Shown here one piece after another: positions 2,949 through 34,576 of a stretch of 64,000 nucleotides of DNA. The DNA is from Candidatus Methylacidiphilales bacterium (GTDB taxonomy: Bacteria; Verrucomicrobiota; Verrucomicrobiia; Methylacidiphilales; CAZTYG01). The stretch lies in assembly GCA_033875315.1 (NCBI GenBank), contig JANRJG010000015.1:1-64000 (forward strand). The letters are read 5' to 3'. The notes beneath the pieces are model-generated. The model did no database searches, had not been told where the DNA came from, and was given only the letters and a program-made list of their open reading frames with translations. The position numbers and the translations under genes were made by a program. The stretch's first letter is position 1, and each line of letters starts with the position of its first letter.

Positions 2949-4436
2949 TCAAGCACTGACTTTGGCCGCCAGATGGGCCAGATGGGCTTCGGGGGTGACT
3001 TCCTGTCCGGTGGCGGCGCGCATCAGTTCCAACGGACGCAAGTGCATGCCCGGCTGGTGGATCTTTTCCCGCAACCAACCGAGCAGGCTGCCATACTGGC
3101 CGGCGGCCAGTTCCGCCGGCAACCGGGGAAGGTCGCGCGTGGCGGCGTTCATGAGCAGGGCGGCATTGAGATTGCCGAGCGTGTAGGTGGGAAAGTAGCC
3201 GAAGCCGCCCATGCTCCAGTGGATGTCCTGCAGGCAGCCCCGGCGGTCGTCGGGCACCGTCAATCCAAAGAGCTGATGGAAGGATTCGTTCCAGAACGCG
3301 GGCACGTCCGCTGCCTCCAGATCCCCCTCGATCAATCGCCTTTCGATGCGGAAACGCAGGATGATGTGGAGGTCGTAGGTGACCTCGTCGGCCTCGACGC
3401 GGATGAACGACCGCTCGATGCGGTTGACGTGTCGCCAGAGCGCTTCGGGGGAAGAGGCCTTCAACTGGGGGAAGTGGTGGACAGCGCGCGCGAACCAGTG
3501 CTCCCAGAACGCCCGGCTGCGGCCGATGTGGTTTTCCCACAGGCGGGACTGGGATTCGTGGATGCCGAGCGAGACCGCCGTCCCGCAGGGGGTGCCGTAA
3601 TGTTCCCCGGGCAGGCCCTGGTCGTAAAGGCCGTGGCCGGTCTCGTGCATGATGCCGTAGAGGGACGAGGTGAAATCATCGGTATCATAGCGGGTGGTGA
3701 GGCGGCAGTCGTTCGGCCCCAGCTCGGTGCAGAAGGGGTGGGCGGTGGTGTCGATCCGGCCGGCCTCAAAGTCGAAACCGAGCGCGGCGGCCACTTCCCG
3801 GTTGAGGGCCTGTTGGGCTTCCACCGGATAGGTTCCGGCGGGAAGTGGGGGAGCCGGGCGCGCATCCTGGGCGGCGGCGCCCTCCGCGACGAGCCGGCTC
3901 AGCCTCGGGGCCAGGCCTTCGAAAAGGGATTCAATGGTCGAGGCCGTGGTTCCGGGTTCGTAGGCGTCCAGCAGGGCGTCGTAGCGGGACTCGGTATAGC
4001 CCCAGAGGTCGGCCTTGCGACGGGCCAGTTCGACGAGTTGGGTCAGAAGGGGCTGGAAGGCGGGGAAGTCATTCCGGGCGCGGGCTCCGACCCAAGCCTG
4101 GTGGGCCAGGGCCTCGGTCTTGGAGCATTCTTCGACCAGGGCGGAGGGCAATTGGGTGGCGCGGTCGTAGGAACGGCGCCACTCGCGCACATTGACCGCG
4201 GCATCGGAACCGGCGGACAGGCCGGACGCTTCGCAATCGGCGATCCATCCGCCCACTTCATCGGCGGTCCAGAGGCGGTGGGAAAGACCGGCGAAGTGGG
4301 CCAATTGTTCGGCACGCCAGGCATTGGCTTTTTCCGGCATGTAGGTTTCCTGGTCCCAGTGGAGGAGGGAAGAGGTGGAGCCGAGCAGGGCCAGTTCACG
4401 AGTGCGCTTGAGGAGGGATGCGTAGGCGGGGGACAT
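2949..4436 (-). CDS. M32 family metallocarboxypeptidase (carboxypeptidase Taq type)
   Basis: A 495-residue cytoplasmic zinc carboxypeptidase that would trim C-terminal residues from peptides. The zinc site is MHETGHGLYDQG, with His264, Glu265 and His268, and the third ligand lies in HESQSRLWEN (Glu294). Other M32 signatures are visible: LHWDQETYMPEKA near the N-terminus (26-37), HPFCTELGPNDCRLTTRY (233-250) and the C-terminal GYFPTYTLGNLNAA. Length is normal for the family (about 500). There is no signal peptide. It is the first of two minus-strand genes and has no obvious functional partner. Confidence 0.93.
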   Translation of the reverse strand: MSPAYASLLKRTRELALLGSTSSLLHWDQETYMPEKANAWRAEQLAHFAGLSHRLWTADEVGGWIADCEASGLSAGSDAAVNVREWRRSYDRATQLPSALVEECSKTEALAHQAWVGARARNDFPAFQPLLTQLVELARRKADLWGYTESRYDALLDAYEPGTTASTIESLFEGLAPRLSRLVAEGAAAQDARPAPPLPAGTYPVEAQQALNREVAAALGFDFEAGRIDTTAHPFCTELGPNDCRLTTRYDTDDFTSSLYGIMHETGHGLYDQGLPGEHYGTPCGTAVSLGIHESQSRLWENHIGRSRAFWEHWFARAVHHFPQLKASSPEALWRHVNRIERSFIRVEADEVTYDLHIILRFRIERRLIEGDLEAADVPAFWNESFHQLFGLTVPDDRRGCLQDIHWSMGGFGYFPTYTLGNLNAALLMNAATRDLPRLPAELAAGQYGSLLGWLREKIHQPGMHLRPLELMRAATGQEVTPEAHLAHLAAKVSA

Positions 4437-4484
4437 GGAAGAAGTTTGAAGTGGATTGCCGGAGTGACAATGGAAATACCGGGA

Positions 4485-5792
4485 TCAAACAGGACGGTCC
4501 CGCTTTTTTTGTTGGGCCCAACACGCCAGCGCCAGAACGGCCATCAGCGCGGCAAAGGCCCAGGGCAGCCAGCGCAGGGAATCCACGAAATCCGCCTGGG
4601 CGCCCTGGGACTGGTGGGCCGCGCCATAAGCCAGACCAATCAGGCCGTAGCCGAGGTTGAAACTGAGGCCCTTGAAGCTCAGGACCGTGGCGCGTTGGGC
4701 CGAGTCCACCCGGGCGTTGATGGCCTGGGATAGGAAATAGGCCACCAGACCGAAGGTGGTTTGGAGCAGCAGGACAAACCCCAAGCTCCAGCGGTTGGTC
4801 AACCACACCATCCCGGCCAAACCCATCGTGGTGAGGAAGGTGGTGAGGGCAAACTTCCAGACCAGGCCCGGACGGCGGTCCATCAGGGAGGCCAGCGGAG
4901 AAACCGCCAGACCGAGGGCGCCGGAGGCCGCGGCGATGATCCCGAGCCAGGCCACCGGCCAGCCGGTGACCCGGAGGTATTCGCTCTCCAGGGTCAGGAT
5001 CAAACGGATGAAGCTGTCGTGCAGCAGGCCGGCGAGCAGGACGGCGACGATGAGGGGCTGGCCGAGAATCCAGCGTCCGGCGGCGAGGATCTGCAACCAG
5101 ACCGCGCGCACCGAAGGGGCCTGGGCCGGGGCTCCGGGCGGCTCGATCATGCGTGCCGTGACCAGGCAGGCCACAAGGGCTGATCCCAGGGTCAATGCCA
5201 CAGGCAGGCGCAGGGTGTGGGCCTTGGTCCAACCCGGATCCAGTCCGAACCATCCGGCCGCACGGTTGCCAAGATCCGGATCGTAAACGGCCGCCCCCAA
5301 CAACATGGCGAAGACAAAAGCCACGGACTGCCAGCGCATCAGGTTTCTCAGAACCGCCGGCCATTCGGCCTCGCGCCCCTCCGCTTTGAGGGAATCGTAG
5401 GCCAGCGCCTCGTCGGCCCCACTGGCGCAGGCCTCGGCCGCCCCGCTGAGGATGCGGTTGAGGGCGAAGGCGGCGAAGACGATCCAGGGATTGCCGAGCG
5501 GGACAAAGACCAACACACCCATCTCCAGAACCATCAGCCAACTGGCCAGGCAGACCATGCGCTTGCGGCCCCACCGGTCGGCCAGGGCGCCGGAGGGCAC
5601 TTCAAAAGCAACAATGGCCGCCGCCCAAAGGGTGTTCAGGATGGCGAACTGTTCGAGGGTCAGGCCGTAGTCGAGGAAGAGAATGGCCAGGACGGGGTAG
5701 TAGAAGCGCGCGCTGAAGAGAAGGCGGAACATCACGAAGAGCGTGATGTTCCGATCAGTGGACGGTGGACGGAAGTCGGTGAACGGTGGCAC
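4485..5792 (-). CDS. MFS transporter with a repeat-derived N-terminus
   Basis: A 435-residue major facilitator permease with about 12 hydrophobic segments and the motif-A loop GALADRWGRKR after TM2. The substrate is unknown. The start is doubtful: a GTG at 5792 has AAGG seven bases upstream, but the first 14 codons are then read from the 7-bp array at 5755-5789. The next choices are an ATG at 5732 (MFRLLFSARFYY), which trims the front of the first hydrophobic segment, or the GTG just before it. I infer that insertion of the neighbouring cassette replaced the native 5' end, and that translation now begins in the array. Confidence 0.8.
   Translation of the reverse strand: MPPFTDFRPPSTDRNITLFVMFRLLFSARFYYPVLAILFLDYGLTLEQFAILNTLWAAAIVAFEVPSGALADRWGRKRMVCLASWLMVLEMGVLVFVPLGNPWIVFAAFALNRILSGAAEACASGADEALAYDSLKAEGREAEWPAVLRNLMRWQSVAFVFAMLLGAAVYDPDLGNRAAGWFGLDPGWTKAHTLRLPVALTLGSALVACLVTARMIEPPGAPAQAPSVRAVWLQILAAGRWILGQPLIVAVLLAGLLHDSFIRLILTLESEYLRVTGWPVAWLGIIAAASGALGLAVSPLASLMDRRPGLVWKFALTTFLTTMGLAGMVWLTNRWSLGFVLLLQTTFGLVAYFLSQAINARVDSAQRATVLSFKGLSFNLGYGLIGLAYGAAHQSQGAQADFVDSLRWLPWAFAALMAVLALACWAQQKKRDRPV
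5726..5752. repeat. Perfect 11-bp hairpin at the edge of the repeat-bounded cassette
   Basis: GGAACATCACG, loop AAGAG, CGTGATGTTCC: perfect arms with a five-base loop. It overlaps the 5' part of the MFS gene and lies two bases from the left 7-bp array. It may be a structural or insertion-site mark, or an mRNA hairpin affecting MFS translation. Confidence 0.7.
5755..5789 (-). repeat. 7-bp tandem array, left flank of four-helix-bundle gene
   Basis: Five units on the plus strand (TCAGTGG, ACGGTGG, ACGGAAG, TCGGTGA, ACGGTGG); on the minus strand this reads as degenerate CCACCGT/CCACTGA. The same heptamer family occurs in the opposite orientation at 6197-6252. Confidence 0.85.
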
Positions 5793-5796
5793 TGTG

Positions 5797-6186
5797 TCAG
5801 GCCTTGATGGTATGGCAAAAAAGTGCCGACTGGGCCATCATGGCGCCCAGCTGGCGTCCAATTCCTTCCAGCACGATCACCAGCTTGCGACACTCCAATG
5901 TGGGAACATACTCACAGGCTTCAGCTGAGAGTAGCCAATGCAAACTTTCTTGGAGTTCACCGTCGGCATCGGTCAGCTTGCTTATGAAATGGGCTTCGTA
6001 TCTTCGCTTTGCCCAGGCTTCGGCAATGTTCGCTCCAATGGCACGGGAGGAACGACGGATTTGGCCGGTCAACGAATACGTTTCCTCTTTCGGCCATTTA
6101 TTTGAAATTCGAAAAACGTCCTGCTGGAAAGCAAACGCCTGTTTATATACCTCAAGGTCTCGGAATGATTGAATGGGTTTTTTCAT
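5797..6186 (-). CDS. Four-helix-bundle protein (S23 / IVP / bAvd-like)
   Basis: A 129-residue all-helical protein with the hallmark YSLTGQIRRSSRAIGANIAEAW near residues 37-58 and the N-terminal FRDLEVYKQAFAFQQDV. Proteins of this family are encoded in intervening sequences of some 23S rRNA genes and resemble the accessory protein Avd of diversity-generating retroelements; they form basic pentamers thought to bind nucleic acid. Function outside those settings is unknown. The ATG at 6186 (MKKPIQSF) is preferred; an upstream GTG at 6246 would translate the repeat array. The gene is boxed in by inverted heptamer arrays, unlike any other gene here. Confidence 0.85.
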   Translation of the reverse strand: MKKPIQSFRDLEVYKQAFAFQQDVFRISNKWPKEETYSLTGQIRRSSRAIGANIAEAWAKRRYEAHFISKLTDADGELQESLHWLLSAEACEYVPTLECRKLVIVLEGIGRQLGAMMAQSALFCHTIKA

Positions 6187-6196
6187 AAACCGCCCG

Positions 6197-6252
6197 CCGT
6201 CTACTGACCACTGTCTACTGTCTTCTGCCCACTGCCCACCGCCCACCGCCCG
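6197..6252 (+). repeat. 7-bp tandem array, right flank of four-helix-bundle gene
   Basis: Eight units: CCGTCTA, CTGACCA, CTGTCTA, CTGTCTT, CTGCCCA, CTGCCCA, CCGCCCA, CCGCCCG. Rotated, the consensus is CCACTGT/CCACCGC, the same family as the left array but on the other strand. It ends five bases before the stop codon of the OmpA-domain gene. Confidence 0.88.
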
Positions 6253-6257
6253 GCGGG

Positions 6258-7235
6258 CTAACGTTCCGCTTCAATGCGGATTTCCACGCGGCGGTTGAGC
6301 TTTTCCTTCTCGGCATCGCCGCTCTGCGGGACGATGGGCCGGGATTTGCCAAACCCCTTCGTGGCCAGCCCGGCGGCGGGAACCCCCCGGGCGATGAGGG
6401 CGTCGGCCACGGAACGGGCCCGCTGTTCGCTCAACTTCAAATTGTAGGCCTCGTCCCCGATCGAGTCGGTGTGTCCCTCGACGGTGATTTTCATTTTGAC
6501 CGCCCCGCGCAGGGCGTCGGCCAACCGCTGCACGGTCCCGGAGGCCGAGGGCAGGAGCACGGCGGAGTCGAAGGAGAACAACACGTCGTTGGAGAGACGG
6601 ATCAGGATGGGCTGGATGCCCGGGCGGGCGACCGCCCCCGGGGGACGGAGGTTGACCAGTTCGGAGATATCGGCCGCGGAGGGCAGCCGGGCGCCGGAAT
6701 TGGCGGCATCGGGGCCGCCTGACAAGCCGGAAGTGGACAAGACTTTGGTTGTTTCCGCCAGCGCGGCCGTGGTGGCGTCCTCGACCAGGGCCTGCGAGAC
6801 ACTGGGGATTTTCCCCTCGGGGGCGGCGGGCAGGGCGGTGAGGGCGTCGACGGGCGTGACGGCGAGGCCCGCGCTCAGGGGCATGGACGGTTCTCCGGTG
6901 AGCGAGGGTAGCGGGATGCGGGGGGCCTGCAGGGGGCCGCTGAAGGCCTCGATCTCGCCCGGGGCGAGGCTGGCCGGGCCGGACGGGCGCTGGGTGGTGA
7001 GTGCGGTCGGCTGGGGGATCTCCGGCTCGAGTCGGCGGGGGTCGATGGTGGCGCGTTCGAGGTTGAAGCGGGCCGGCTCAATCGGGTCGACCAAGGGAGG
7101 GCCGAAGTCCAGCAGGAGGCCGCGCGACCAGAGGACGATGCCGAGATGAAAAACAAGCGAGGCCAGAAGGGCCAGGAGCAACCACGACAGCGCGGGGTTG
7201 CGCGATTGGGGGGCGCGGGCCGTGGCGGCGGACAT
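6258..7235 (-). CDS. Inner-membrane-anchored protein with C-terminal OmpA domain
   Basis: A 325-residue protein with a short cytoplasmic N-terminus, one membrane segment (about residues 16-37, LSWLLLALLASLVFHLGIVL), a Pro/Ala/Gly-rich linker, and an OmpA/Pal-type peptidoglycan-binding domain at about 210-325 (VLFSFDSAVLLPSA, ITVEGHTDSIGDEAYNLKLSEQRA, GFGKSRPIVP, NRRVEIRIE). The N-terminal half is built like TonB (SxxxH motif in the membrane helix and a proline-rich spacer) but ends in a peptidoglycan-binding domain. It is last in the exbB-exbD-tonB run and probably ties the Ton motor to the cell wall. The start ATG is 70 bp downstream of tonB. Confidence 0.82.
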   Translation of the reverse strand: MSAATARAPQSRNPALSWLLLALLASLVFHLGIVLWSRGLLLDFGPPLVDPIEPARFNLERATIDPRRLEPEIPQPTALTTQRPSGPASLAPGEIEAFSGPLQAPRIPLPSLTGEPSMPLSAGLAVTPVDALTALPAAPEGKIPSVSQALVEDATTAALAETTKVLSTSGLSGGPDAANSGARLPSAADISELVNLRPPGAVARPGIQPILIRLSNDVLFSFDSAVLLPSASGTVQRLADALRGAVKMKITVEGHTDSIGDEAYNLKLSEQRARSVADALIARGVPAAGLATKGFGKSRPIVPQSGDAEKEKLNRRVEIRIEAER

Positions 7236-7305
7236 AGGACCAGTTAAGCCGCAAACAGCCCCGGCAACAAGGCCGCTTTCCTTGCCTGAATGAATGCGGG
7301 TGCGG

Positions 7306-14324: not shown

Positions 14325-15065
14325 ATGAAGAGCGAACGTGGAATAGCGAATAGCGGAAGTTCAGGCATAACGTCCGGCCCTCGGTGCCCTTGCCGGACGT
14401 CCTTTCCGCCATCTGCCATCCGCCGTCCGTCATCTGCCTTCACTCTGATCGAGTTGTTGGTGGTGGTCGGGATCATCGCCATCCTGCTGGCCCTCACCAT
14501 CCCCTCGATCACCGGACTGGCGGGATCGGCGGGCCGTAAGGGGGCGGTCAACGTTTTGCTGAACACCTTCGAACAGGCCCGGGCCTATGCCCTGGAGGGC
14601 AGCGTCAACACCTACGTCGGATTTGCCGACAAGAACTTTCCCGAGGAAGCCATGCGCTACCGGGCGTTCATCGTGTTTCGGGAGAAGACGGATGACGACC
14701 CGGCCGGCACGGGCGAGTATGTGCCTTTGACGAAATGGGAAACGCTTCCCAAAACCATCAGCTTCAAGAGCGAGAACCAGTCCCTGCTGGCGGACTATTA
14801 TCTGGCTTTGACCGACACATCCGTTCCTCGCCTGTCCTCGGGTGCGCAACTCCCCGTTCTGGCCTTCAATCCCAGCGGGGCCATCCAATCATTGCACACC
14901 ACTGCGAGGCTGCGGGTGTTTCTTTACGAGGGCTATTTTCTCAACAATCAGGACAACTTCGTCCGGCAAGCGGCTTTCCAGCGCTCCTCGAGCGGCTTGT
15001 TTGAATGCATCACCTTTTCCCGGTTCACCGGCCGCGCCCAAGTGGATGTGACGACGACACAATGA
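14325..15065 (+). CDS. Prepilin-like protein, Verru_Chthon cassette D type (GspH-like)
   Basis: A 246-residue type IV prepilin-like protein. The processing site is SSA^FTLIELLVVVGIIAILLAL with Glu5 of the mature protein intact, followed by a hydrophobic helix and a soluble head (YALEGSVNTYVGFADKNFPEEAMRYRAFIVF). The head pattern and place as first of four cassette genes match cassette protein D and resemble GspH/FimT minor pseudopilins. The leader is unusually long (about 38 residues) and is translated from repeats: GAATAGC twice at 14341-14355 and five heptamers at 14406-14440. No good ribosome-binding site precedes the ATG at 14325, so a later start cannot be excluded. The next gene overlaps by 4 bp. 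Confidence 0.82.
   Translation: MKSERGIANSGSSGITSGPRCPCRTSFPPSAIRRPSSAFTLIELLVVVGIIAILLALTIPSITGLAGSAGRKGAVNVLLNTFEQARAYALEGSVNTYVGFADKNFPEEAMRYRAFIVFREKTDDDPAGTGEYVPLTKWETLPKTISFKSENQSLLADYYLALTDTSVPRLSSGAQLPVLAFNPSGAIQSLHTTARLRVFLYEGYFLNNQDNFVRQAAFQRSSSGLFECITFSRFTGRAQVDVTTTQ
14341..14355 (+). repeat. GAATAGC heptamer, two units, in prepilin leader
   Basis: GAATAGC GAATAGC G, within the first codons of the prepilin D gene. Short, but the same 7-bp period as the longer arrays in this window. Confidence 0.5.
14406..14440 (+). repeat. 7-bp tandem array encoding part of a prepilin leader
   Basis: Five units: CCGCCAT, CTGCCAT, CCGCCGT, CCGTCAT, CTGCCTT. It is in frame with the prepilin gene and is translated PPSAIRRPSSA, directly before the FTLIE processing site. 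Confidence 0.85.
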
Positions 15066-25695: not shown

Positions 25696-25718
25696 GTTCT
25701 TTCGGGGGTGGAGAGAAC
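25696..25718. repeat. GTTCTTTC/GAGAGAAC hairpin, copy 2
   Basis: Near copy of the hairpin at 341-365 with one arm mismatch and a GGGGG-containing loop, followed here by a GAGAAC/GAGATC hexamer tract. Confidence 0.6.
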
Positions 25719-25790
25719 GAGAACGAGATCGAGATCGAGCAGGAGAATCGAGTGGGAACTGCTGCCAATCTCCTGAATCCTCGTGATCCA

Positions 25791-33683: not shown

Positions 33684-33798
33684 TTTACCGTGAAGGGCGC
33701 GAAGCTCGCGAAGGTTTGGGTGTTATGGGTAAGAGGGAGGGTTCAGAATCGTGTTTAATGTAAAAAAACTTAGCGGCCTTCGCGTTCTTCGCGGTGAA
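33684..33798. repeat. Palindromic dispersed repeat between purQ and purL
   Basis: Left arm 33684-33714 (CGTGAAGGGCGCGAAGCTCG) pairs with right arm 33777-33798 (CTTCGCGTTCTTCGCGGTGA); the right arm lacks 9 bases relative to the left. The AT-richer middle has no gene. Same family as 34465-34576. Confidence 0.75.
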
Positions 33799-33801
33799 TA
33801 T

Positions 33802-34464: not shown

Positions 34465-34576
34465 TTCACCGCGAAGAACGCCAAGGGCGCGAAGCTCAAT
34501 GCCTCAAAAGCTTTTAAAAACATGGTGGATATAAAAAGAAAAAATCCTTCGCGTTCTTCGCGAACTTCGCGGTGAA
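34465..34576. repeat. Palindromic MITE-like repeat between purS and purQ
   Basis: Arms 34465-34495 and 34546-34576 are inverted copies with 25 of 31 bases pairing (outer ends TTCACCGCGAAG and CTTCGCGGTGAA). The 50-bp middle is AT-rich with AAAAGCTTTT. It fills almost the whole 124-bp gap, has no coding capacity and would form a long hairpin in the mRNA. Confidence 0.82.

Follow-up and report, generated by a model that had tools for sequence, protein, structure and literature searches.

The 64,000-nucleotide stretch of Candidatus Methylacidiphilales contig JANRJG010000015.1 analysed here (the window) contains a 498-bp unit in which a single gene of the S23 family, encoding a four-helix-bundle protein of the kind found in the intervening sequences (IVSs) of 23S rRNA, is enclosed by two inverted arrays of tandem heptamers. 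Comparison of homologous loci demonstrates that one S23 gene between inverted tandem arrays is the rule across bacteria, that these units are precisely present or absent at given sites, and that the unrelated GxxExxY genes form a parallel class of cassettes. We regard the 498-bp feature as probably a mobile, or formerly mobile, single-gene cassette, a non-rRNA form of the S23-type IVS with ends that would be defined by spacing.

Inverted tandem arrays at S23 loci

The unit had been proposed from the sequence alone as a 129-residue S23/intervening-sequence-protein gene filling 498 bp, with a left array of five and a right array of eight units of one heptamer family, inverted with respect to each other, at 7 and 10 bp from the gene. 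Both its coordinates and its content proved correct. In profile searches the protein matches PF05635 (E = 4e-26) and TIGR02436 (E = 2.3e-25), scoring 91.7 and 88.9 bits against curated family cut-offs of 33.8 and 24 bits, respectively, and its structural relatives in PDB are 2GSC (8e-6) and 2RLD. The left array reads TCAGTGG ACGGTGG ACGGAAG TCGGTGA ACGGTGG, and the right array, as its reverse complement, CGGGCGG TGGGCGG TGGGCAG TGGGCAG AAGACAG TAGACAG TGGTCAG TAGACGG. The right array, which TRF detects too, is most unlikely to be a chance repeat: of 63,944 window positions, only 6 equal its lag-7 identity (38/49). For the left array (18/28) the corresponding number is 97, spread over 7 places. 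Matched in inverted orientation, the two arrays score 9.5, a value equalled by 31 of 4000 random pairs at equal spacing; with 220-bp flanks it scores 10.5 and the best of 100 shuffles 11.0, so shuffles were not beaten. From the window alone, the pairing of the two arrays is only suggestive. The case was therefore made on homologues, and the family-wide result makes the pairing solid.

The genome of the window contains seven PF05635 genes, every one of them with repeat arrays on both sides and all with different units (e.g., GTGATGRG, with period 8; AGTTTTA; GTCCTTG; and GTTCTC, with period 6). Five of the seven inverted scores exceed every shuffle, a sixth equals the best of them, and that of the window copy is slightly lower. 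In a first sample of S23 loci from the same order, picked by Pfam family alone, the left and right flanks of 25 of the 32 scorable loci matched strongly in inverted orientation (score of at least 13), as compared with 3.3% of pairings between left flanks and the right flanks of other loci; direct orientation gave background values. ParE loci, small toxin genes from the same genomes, passed in only 1 of 27 cases (Fisher P = 5e-9), and none of their 54 flanks carried a strong period-7 repeat. A scan of bacterial and archaeal species provided a second sample of 80 further loci, assigned by record title to the Verrucomicrobiota, Pseudomonadota, Bacteroidota, Planctomycetota, Lentisphaerota, Bacillota, Acidobacteriota, Desulfobacterota, Chlorobi, Campylobacterota, several candidate-phyla-radiation groups and others. 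In this sample, for which the query profile was built from array-flanked S23 members, inverted arrays were found at 61 of 77 S23 loci; mismatched flank pairs passed in 3.0% of cases and pseudo-genes taken from this DNA in 1.8%. Of 154 S23 flanks, 79 contained a strong period-7 repeat, as compared with 27 of 770 background segments, and left and right units agreed far more within one S23 unit than between units. The sequence-only reading had set as a test, in advance, whether the flanks of homologues carry inverted arrays, and in both samples most of them do.

S23 genes are under purifying selection (51 pairs; median ratio of nonsynonymous to synonymous substitution, dN/dS, of 0.20, none above 1). 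A PADLOC search for defence systems returned no match for S23, and 50,697 phage records contained no match to S23 or GxxExxY, each searched with one query. Between co-directional neighbours, S23 lies in the same orientation in 56 instances and in the opposite one in 9 (P = 2e-9), with the outer array edge at a median of 5 bp past the upstream stop codon and 11 bp before the next start. The window unit fits this placement, with ~6 bp separating it from the ompA stop upstream and 22 bp from the likely MFS start downstream (ATG at 5732, picked by eye). In another locus (L007), an S23 unit is located between genes that, judged by eye, appear to be rfbF and rfbG, of O-antigen sugar synthesis.

Inverted arrays were also found at 28 of 29 loci of GxxExxY genes (PF13366, TIGR04256), which have a PD-(D/E)XK fold. 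Here the array spacing is 8-10 bp, with lag identities of 0.39, 0.37 and 0.34 at 8, 9 and 10, versus 0.67 at 7 in S23 arms. GxxExxY genes likewise favour the sense orientation (16 vs 3), and many of them adjoin stop codons; their mismatched flank pairs pass in 11.5% of cases, a higher rate explained by the resemblance of GxxExxY units to each other. The bAvd profile detects a mixed set of genes, S23 among them, of which 16 of 26 pass the inverted-array test. On a Bacteroidales contig, a locus resembling a diversity-generating retroelement (DGR; L057:4001-8303) comprises a candidate variable protein, Avd (2e-18) and a reverse transcriptase (RT)-like open reading frame (ORF) with YVDD; its avd gene lies between inverted heptamer arrays, before the RT-like ORF, and an S23 unit is located just upstream of the candidate variable protein.

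Filled and empty alleles of S23 units

Orthologous sites occur both with and without a unit. Among 120 Pseudomonas species, cysD and cysN almost abut in ~98, with an empty junction that reads TAA-GGGGYTGTC-ATG in most of those inspected, and ~22 carry a whole or partial unit between both genes. In six of the latter (L203-L208), S23 has been partly or wholly deleted and the right array kept as the cysN leader, which suggests an acquired dependence of the host on this array. In a Nostoc plasmid operon, one unit precisely splits GAGGTAATG/GGATTTG, an unrelated unit occupies the neighbouring operon junction in three other plasmids, and empty alleles with ~91-96% identity exist around both insertion junctions. 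The Pseudomonas and Nostoc sites thus supply the empty alleles whose existence had been the second test fixed beforehand. A unit is also present between cas6 and cas4 in Anabaena sp. 90 and missing from a plasmid that is 98.8% identical in the aligned parts. The empty sites at cas6-cas4, in Calothrix and at trmJ-suhB were rejected as clean junctions, since other intergenic sequence is present in them. One Nostoc S23 gene (L371) is itself split by a gene-less insert, the ends of which are inverted arrays of that unit type.

In Pseudoalteromonas, S23 is present in 38 of 109 species, with up to five copies per genome, and some units are grouped in stretches of a few tens of kilobases. At the trmJ-suhB site, S23 alleles occur in both orientations, together with two gene-less alleles in which those arrays are fused and S23 is gone (L297, L300) and further alleles that have solo arrays or none. 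Two S23 genes at this site (L291, L292) are split by other small inserts, one of which has inverted CCCAAACCACCTCAA-type ends. Three Pseudoalteromonas S23 genes (L222, L237 and L240) are 77-84% identical and have two array types in common; the L237 flanks are unrelated to those of L222 and L240, and homology between L222 and L237 stops at the arrays. L217 and L230, with the upstream unit in common, constitute a second case of related units at unrelated sites. We regard the L222/L237/L240 pattern as decisive for mobility. Two other candidates for movement were rejected, as the Calothrix plasmid copies L135 and L136 have the same flanking genes and L089 and L092 the same synteny.

For the window site, a strict empty allele was not found. 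The comparison of MFS/ompA loci that the sequence-only reading had proposed identified ompA homologues with neither array nor S23 in 11 relatives, all of which also lack the MFS neighbour. The notion of a discrete mobile unit with tandem-heptamer ends is consequently borne out for the family, by alleles and unrelated sites, and exceeds the evidence for the window copy, given that its site has yielded no strict empty allele.

Array anatomy and competing explanations

The sequence of the array unit is private to each insert, the match being confined to its own left and right arrays, and what the inserts have in common is period and polarity. The period is 7 in 144 of 189 arrays, followed by 8, 9 and 6, and period-7 arrays have a median length of 34 nt, or ~5 units, a figure influenced by the detection threshold. 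On the strand reading toward the gene, an AG/GG step is present at each repeat at both ends; the recurring step is AG in 110 arrays, as compared with CT in 24. Steps are kept 7 nt on with frequencies of 0.79 for AG and 0.80 for GT, the best of all, versus 0.53 for GA and 0.49 for AT.

If S23 units are mobile cassettes, the arrays would be their functional ends, recognised through spacing and the RG step instead of sequence, and most simply as single strands, because 7 nt does not fit the turn of B-DNA. The pentameric S23 barrel would be a putative reader of this spacing, much as TRAP reads RNA triplets at fixed spacing. The pentamer is seen in structure 2GSC (Lin et al. 2006, as cited in PMC10053308). 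Slippage within the arrays could rewrite the spacer bases and thereby give each insert its own unit, cutting and joining might be performed in trans by host or other enzymes, and the sense orientation and gene-junction placement may result from selection for harmless insertion and read-through expression. That GxxExxY forms a parallel class with a spacing of its own favours a reading of the spacing linked to the cargo.

Several observations weigh against a mobile cassette of this kind. The six other copies in the genome of the window are strongly diverged, with 21-30% amino acid identity to the window copy, and no near-identical copies at clearly different sites were found among the Pseudoalteromonas units. 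The S23 unit encodes no transposase (no genome-wide transposase search was made), and the possible target duplications of two Nostoc insertions (3 bp, ATG; 5 bp, TTCTA) are inconsistent. Left and right arrays often drift apart, as in the Pseudoalteromonas trmJ-suhB alleles L286-L290. The period is not structured by the S23 protein phylogeny (16 changes, against 17.3 when shuffled; P = 0.23), a result that makes S23 less convincing as a reader of the spacing. Finally, ~18 array-only loci and 3 S23 units are found in 464 kb of the window genome, and this excess indicates that arrays have a life of their own.

These last two results, a period without clade structure and abundant solo arrays, point to a larger role of array dynamics alone. 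Arrays might have come first, as independent slippage-prone intergenic repeats, some of them in inverted pairs, with S23 and GxxExxY as passengers without a dedicated mobility function that are swapped between arrays through homologous or microhomology recombination. The solo and fused arrays at trmJ-suhB and the replacement of the unit sequence at one site (L215/L246) fit such a scenario, as do the inverted GGGAATC pairs of Xanthomonas, which are reported not to be associated with mobile elements (PMC4692102). Nevertheless, only three array pairs in the 464 kb have a strong inverted partner within 1.6 kb (an S23 unit, a pair within a gene and a pair with close spacing), spacing differs by cargo class and the match between left and right arrays is far greater within than between units, so that we consider passenger status unlikely.

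Less likely still is that the unit operates at the RNA level, with arrays kept as an RNA stem that is looped out or cut by RNase III from operon mRNA, and any mobility proceeding via RNA and reverse transcription. The sense bias in operons, the status of Avd as a retroelement partner, with one DGR avd flanked by arrays, and the stems of rRNA IVSs, which are excised by RNase III (PMC4990558), would all agree with it. Against this, arm mismatches show no excess of G-U-compatible changes on the sense strand (86 vs 92, P = 0.71), so that nothing points to selection on an RNA stem, and the two arms often diverge. Furthermore, no PF00078 match to a reverse transcriptase was found in the window genome, nor any association between RT and S23 among 40 relatives (5/18 vs 6/22). 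Repeats arising by chance, or a normal host gene flanked by simple sequence, would account for a window match that does not exceed shuffles, but are refuted at the family level by the mismatched-flank, pseudo-gene and ParE controls and by the exact filled and empty alleles, leaving this explanation highly implausible.

Known elements and the window locus

The closest known systems are the 23S rRNA IVSs of Coxiella burnetii and Leptospira, which resemble S23 units in protein family, size (~430 bp), single ORF, inverted ends and sporadic distribution, and which have been regarded as a mobile parasite. In the Coxiella IVS, an S23p ORF lies within inverted repeats in 23S rRNA and three tandem GACAGAT heptamers are located just upstream of it (PMC4990558); GACAGAT carries AG on the expected strand. 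Like these IVSs, the window unit has an S23 ORF in terminal inverted repeats and tandem heptamers adjoining the ORF. S23 units differ from them in lying between protein genes (at the window unit, those for MFS and OmpA proteins, not a 16S or 23S gene), in having inverted tandem arrays with a private unit and in being far more widespread; the conserved 23S motif is absent from the S23 loci examined. The sequence-only reading had likewise reported no rRNA or reverse transcriptase at the unit, and Rfam has no match, and hence no known RNA family, across 4400-7300.

The window protein also shares a homologous four-helix bundle with Avd/bAvd (NF033474, 1e-7; PF22296, 1.4e-6), and at least one DGR avd (L057) has inverted heptamer arrays around it. 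At 32.2 bits, it falls far below the Avd equivalog cut-off of 80, and in contrast with a DGR the window unit has no RT, template repeat or variable repeat. The short tandemly repeated repetitive (STRR) heptamer repeats of cyanobacteria are, like S23-unit ends, tandem heptamers in intergenic DNA, and so are the TAACTGA heptamers of Beggiatoaceae (PMC4679880) and the GGGAATC heptamers of Xanthomonas, which form 70-75 inverted pairs (PMC4692102). All three have been described as solo repeats; the passages on these repeats in both papers link heptamers neither to S23 genes nor to a mobile unit. Miniature inverted-repeat transposable elements and insertion sequences have inverted ends, gene-less derivatives and intergenic insertion in common with S23 units, which differ in that the unit contains no transposase, the ends vary between copies and have no sequence conserved, and target duplication is not consistent.

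In open-access full text, no paper was found that connects arrays outside rRNA with the S23 or GxxExxY genes between them, and beyond a few copies in rRNA genes an array-ended mobile element seems not to have been described before. The proposal that the window holds an undescribed element accordingly applies to the non-rRNA form; the S23 cassette is not wholly new, since S23 ORFs, inverted repeats and the Coxiella heptamers were known in rRNA IVSs. A more speculative extension, which we put forward as tentative and rather doubtful, is that S23 and GxxExxY cassettes are one class of mobile element with ends set by step spacing and polarity (7 nt for S23, 8-10 nt for GxxExxY) and read by the cargo, of which IVSs, avd and heptamers would be relocated, domesticated and decayed members, respectively. 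No function is known for the widespread S23 ("four helix bundle") and GxxExxY genes, and their array-ended inserts give them a likely identity as mobile cassettes. Such an identity would link three puzzles, namely rRNA intervening sequences, the origin of Avd and the scattered heptamer repeats of bacteria. It would be uncommon for a mobile element to conserve the spacing of its ends while their sequence varies, and such ends are directly testable.

Table 1. Features of the S23 locus in the window
Feature	Position	Strand	Remarks
Whole S23 unit, array-gene-array	5755..6252	(-), oriented by gene	498 bp; geometry as in homologues
Upstream (5') array, 8 heptamers	6197..6252	(-)	TGGRCRG type on strand reading toward gene
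S23/23S-rRNA-IVP four-helix-bundle gene	5797..6186	(-)	129 aa; ATG at 6186
Downstream (3') array, 5 heptamers	5755..5789	(+)	Inverted TGGRCRG-type unit
Upstream neighbour, OmpA-family protein	6258..7235	(-)	PF00691, 2.7e-22; stop codon ~6 bp from array
Downstream neighbour, MFS transporter	4485..5732	(-)	PF07690, 4.8e-15

Arrays without an S23 gene were observed elsewhere in the window and its genome. Two window arrays (34465-34494 and 34547-34576) form a gene-less inverted pair of CGCGAAG type (TTCACCGCGAAGAACGCCAAGGGCGCGAAG, score 17.5) with a 52-bp core between them, and another copy of this type lies at ~33780-33800, across the gene adjoining the pair; their style is that of the GxxExxY cassette ends in the window genome (L339). 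A solo hexamer array at 25713-25752 (GAGAAC/GAGATC) has the unit style of an S23 cassette from the same genome (L006). An inverted heptamer array pair lies within one ORF, where it is apparently tolerated in frame (L116:14190-14981; G000 C15 98190-98981), and a heptamer array at window positions 14399-14440 (CCATCTG/CCGTCCG) occupies the apparent coding sequence for the leader peptide in a type IV pilin-like gene (SAFTLIELLVVVGIIAIL).
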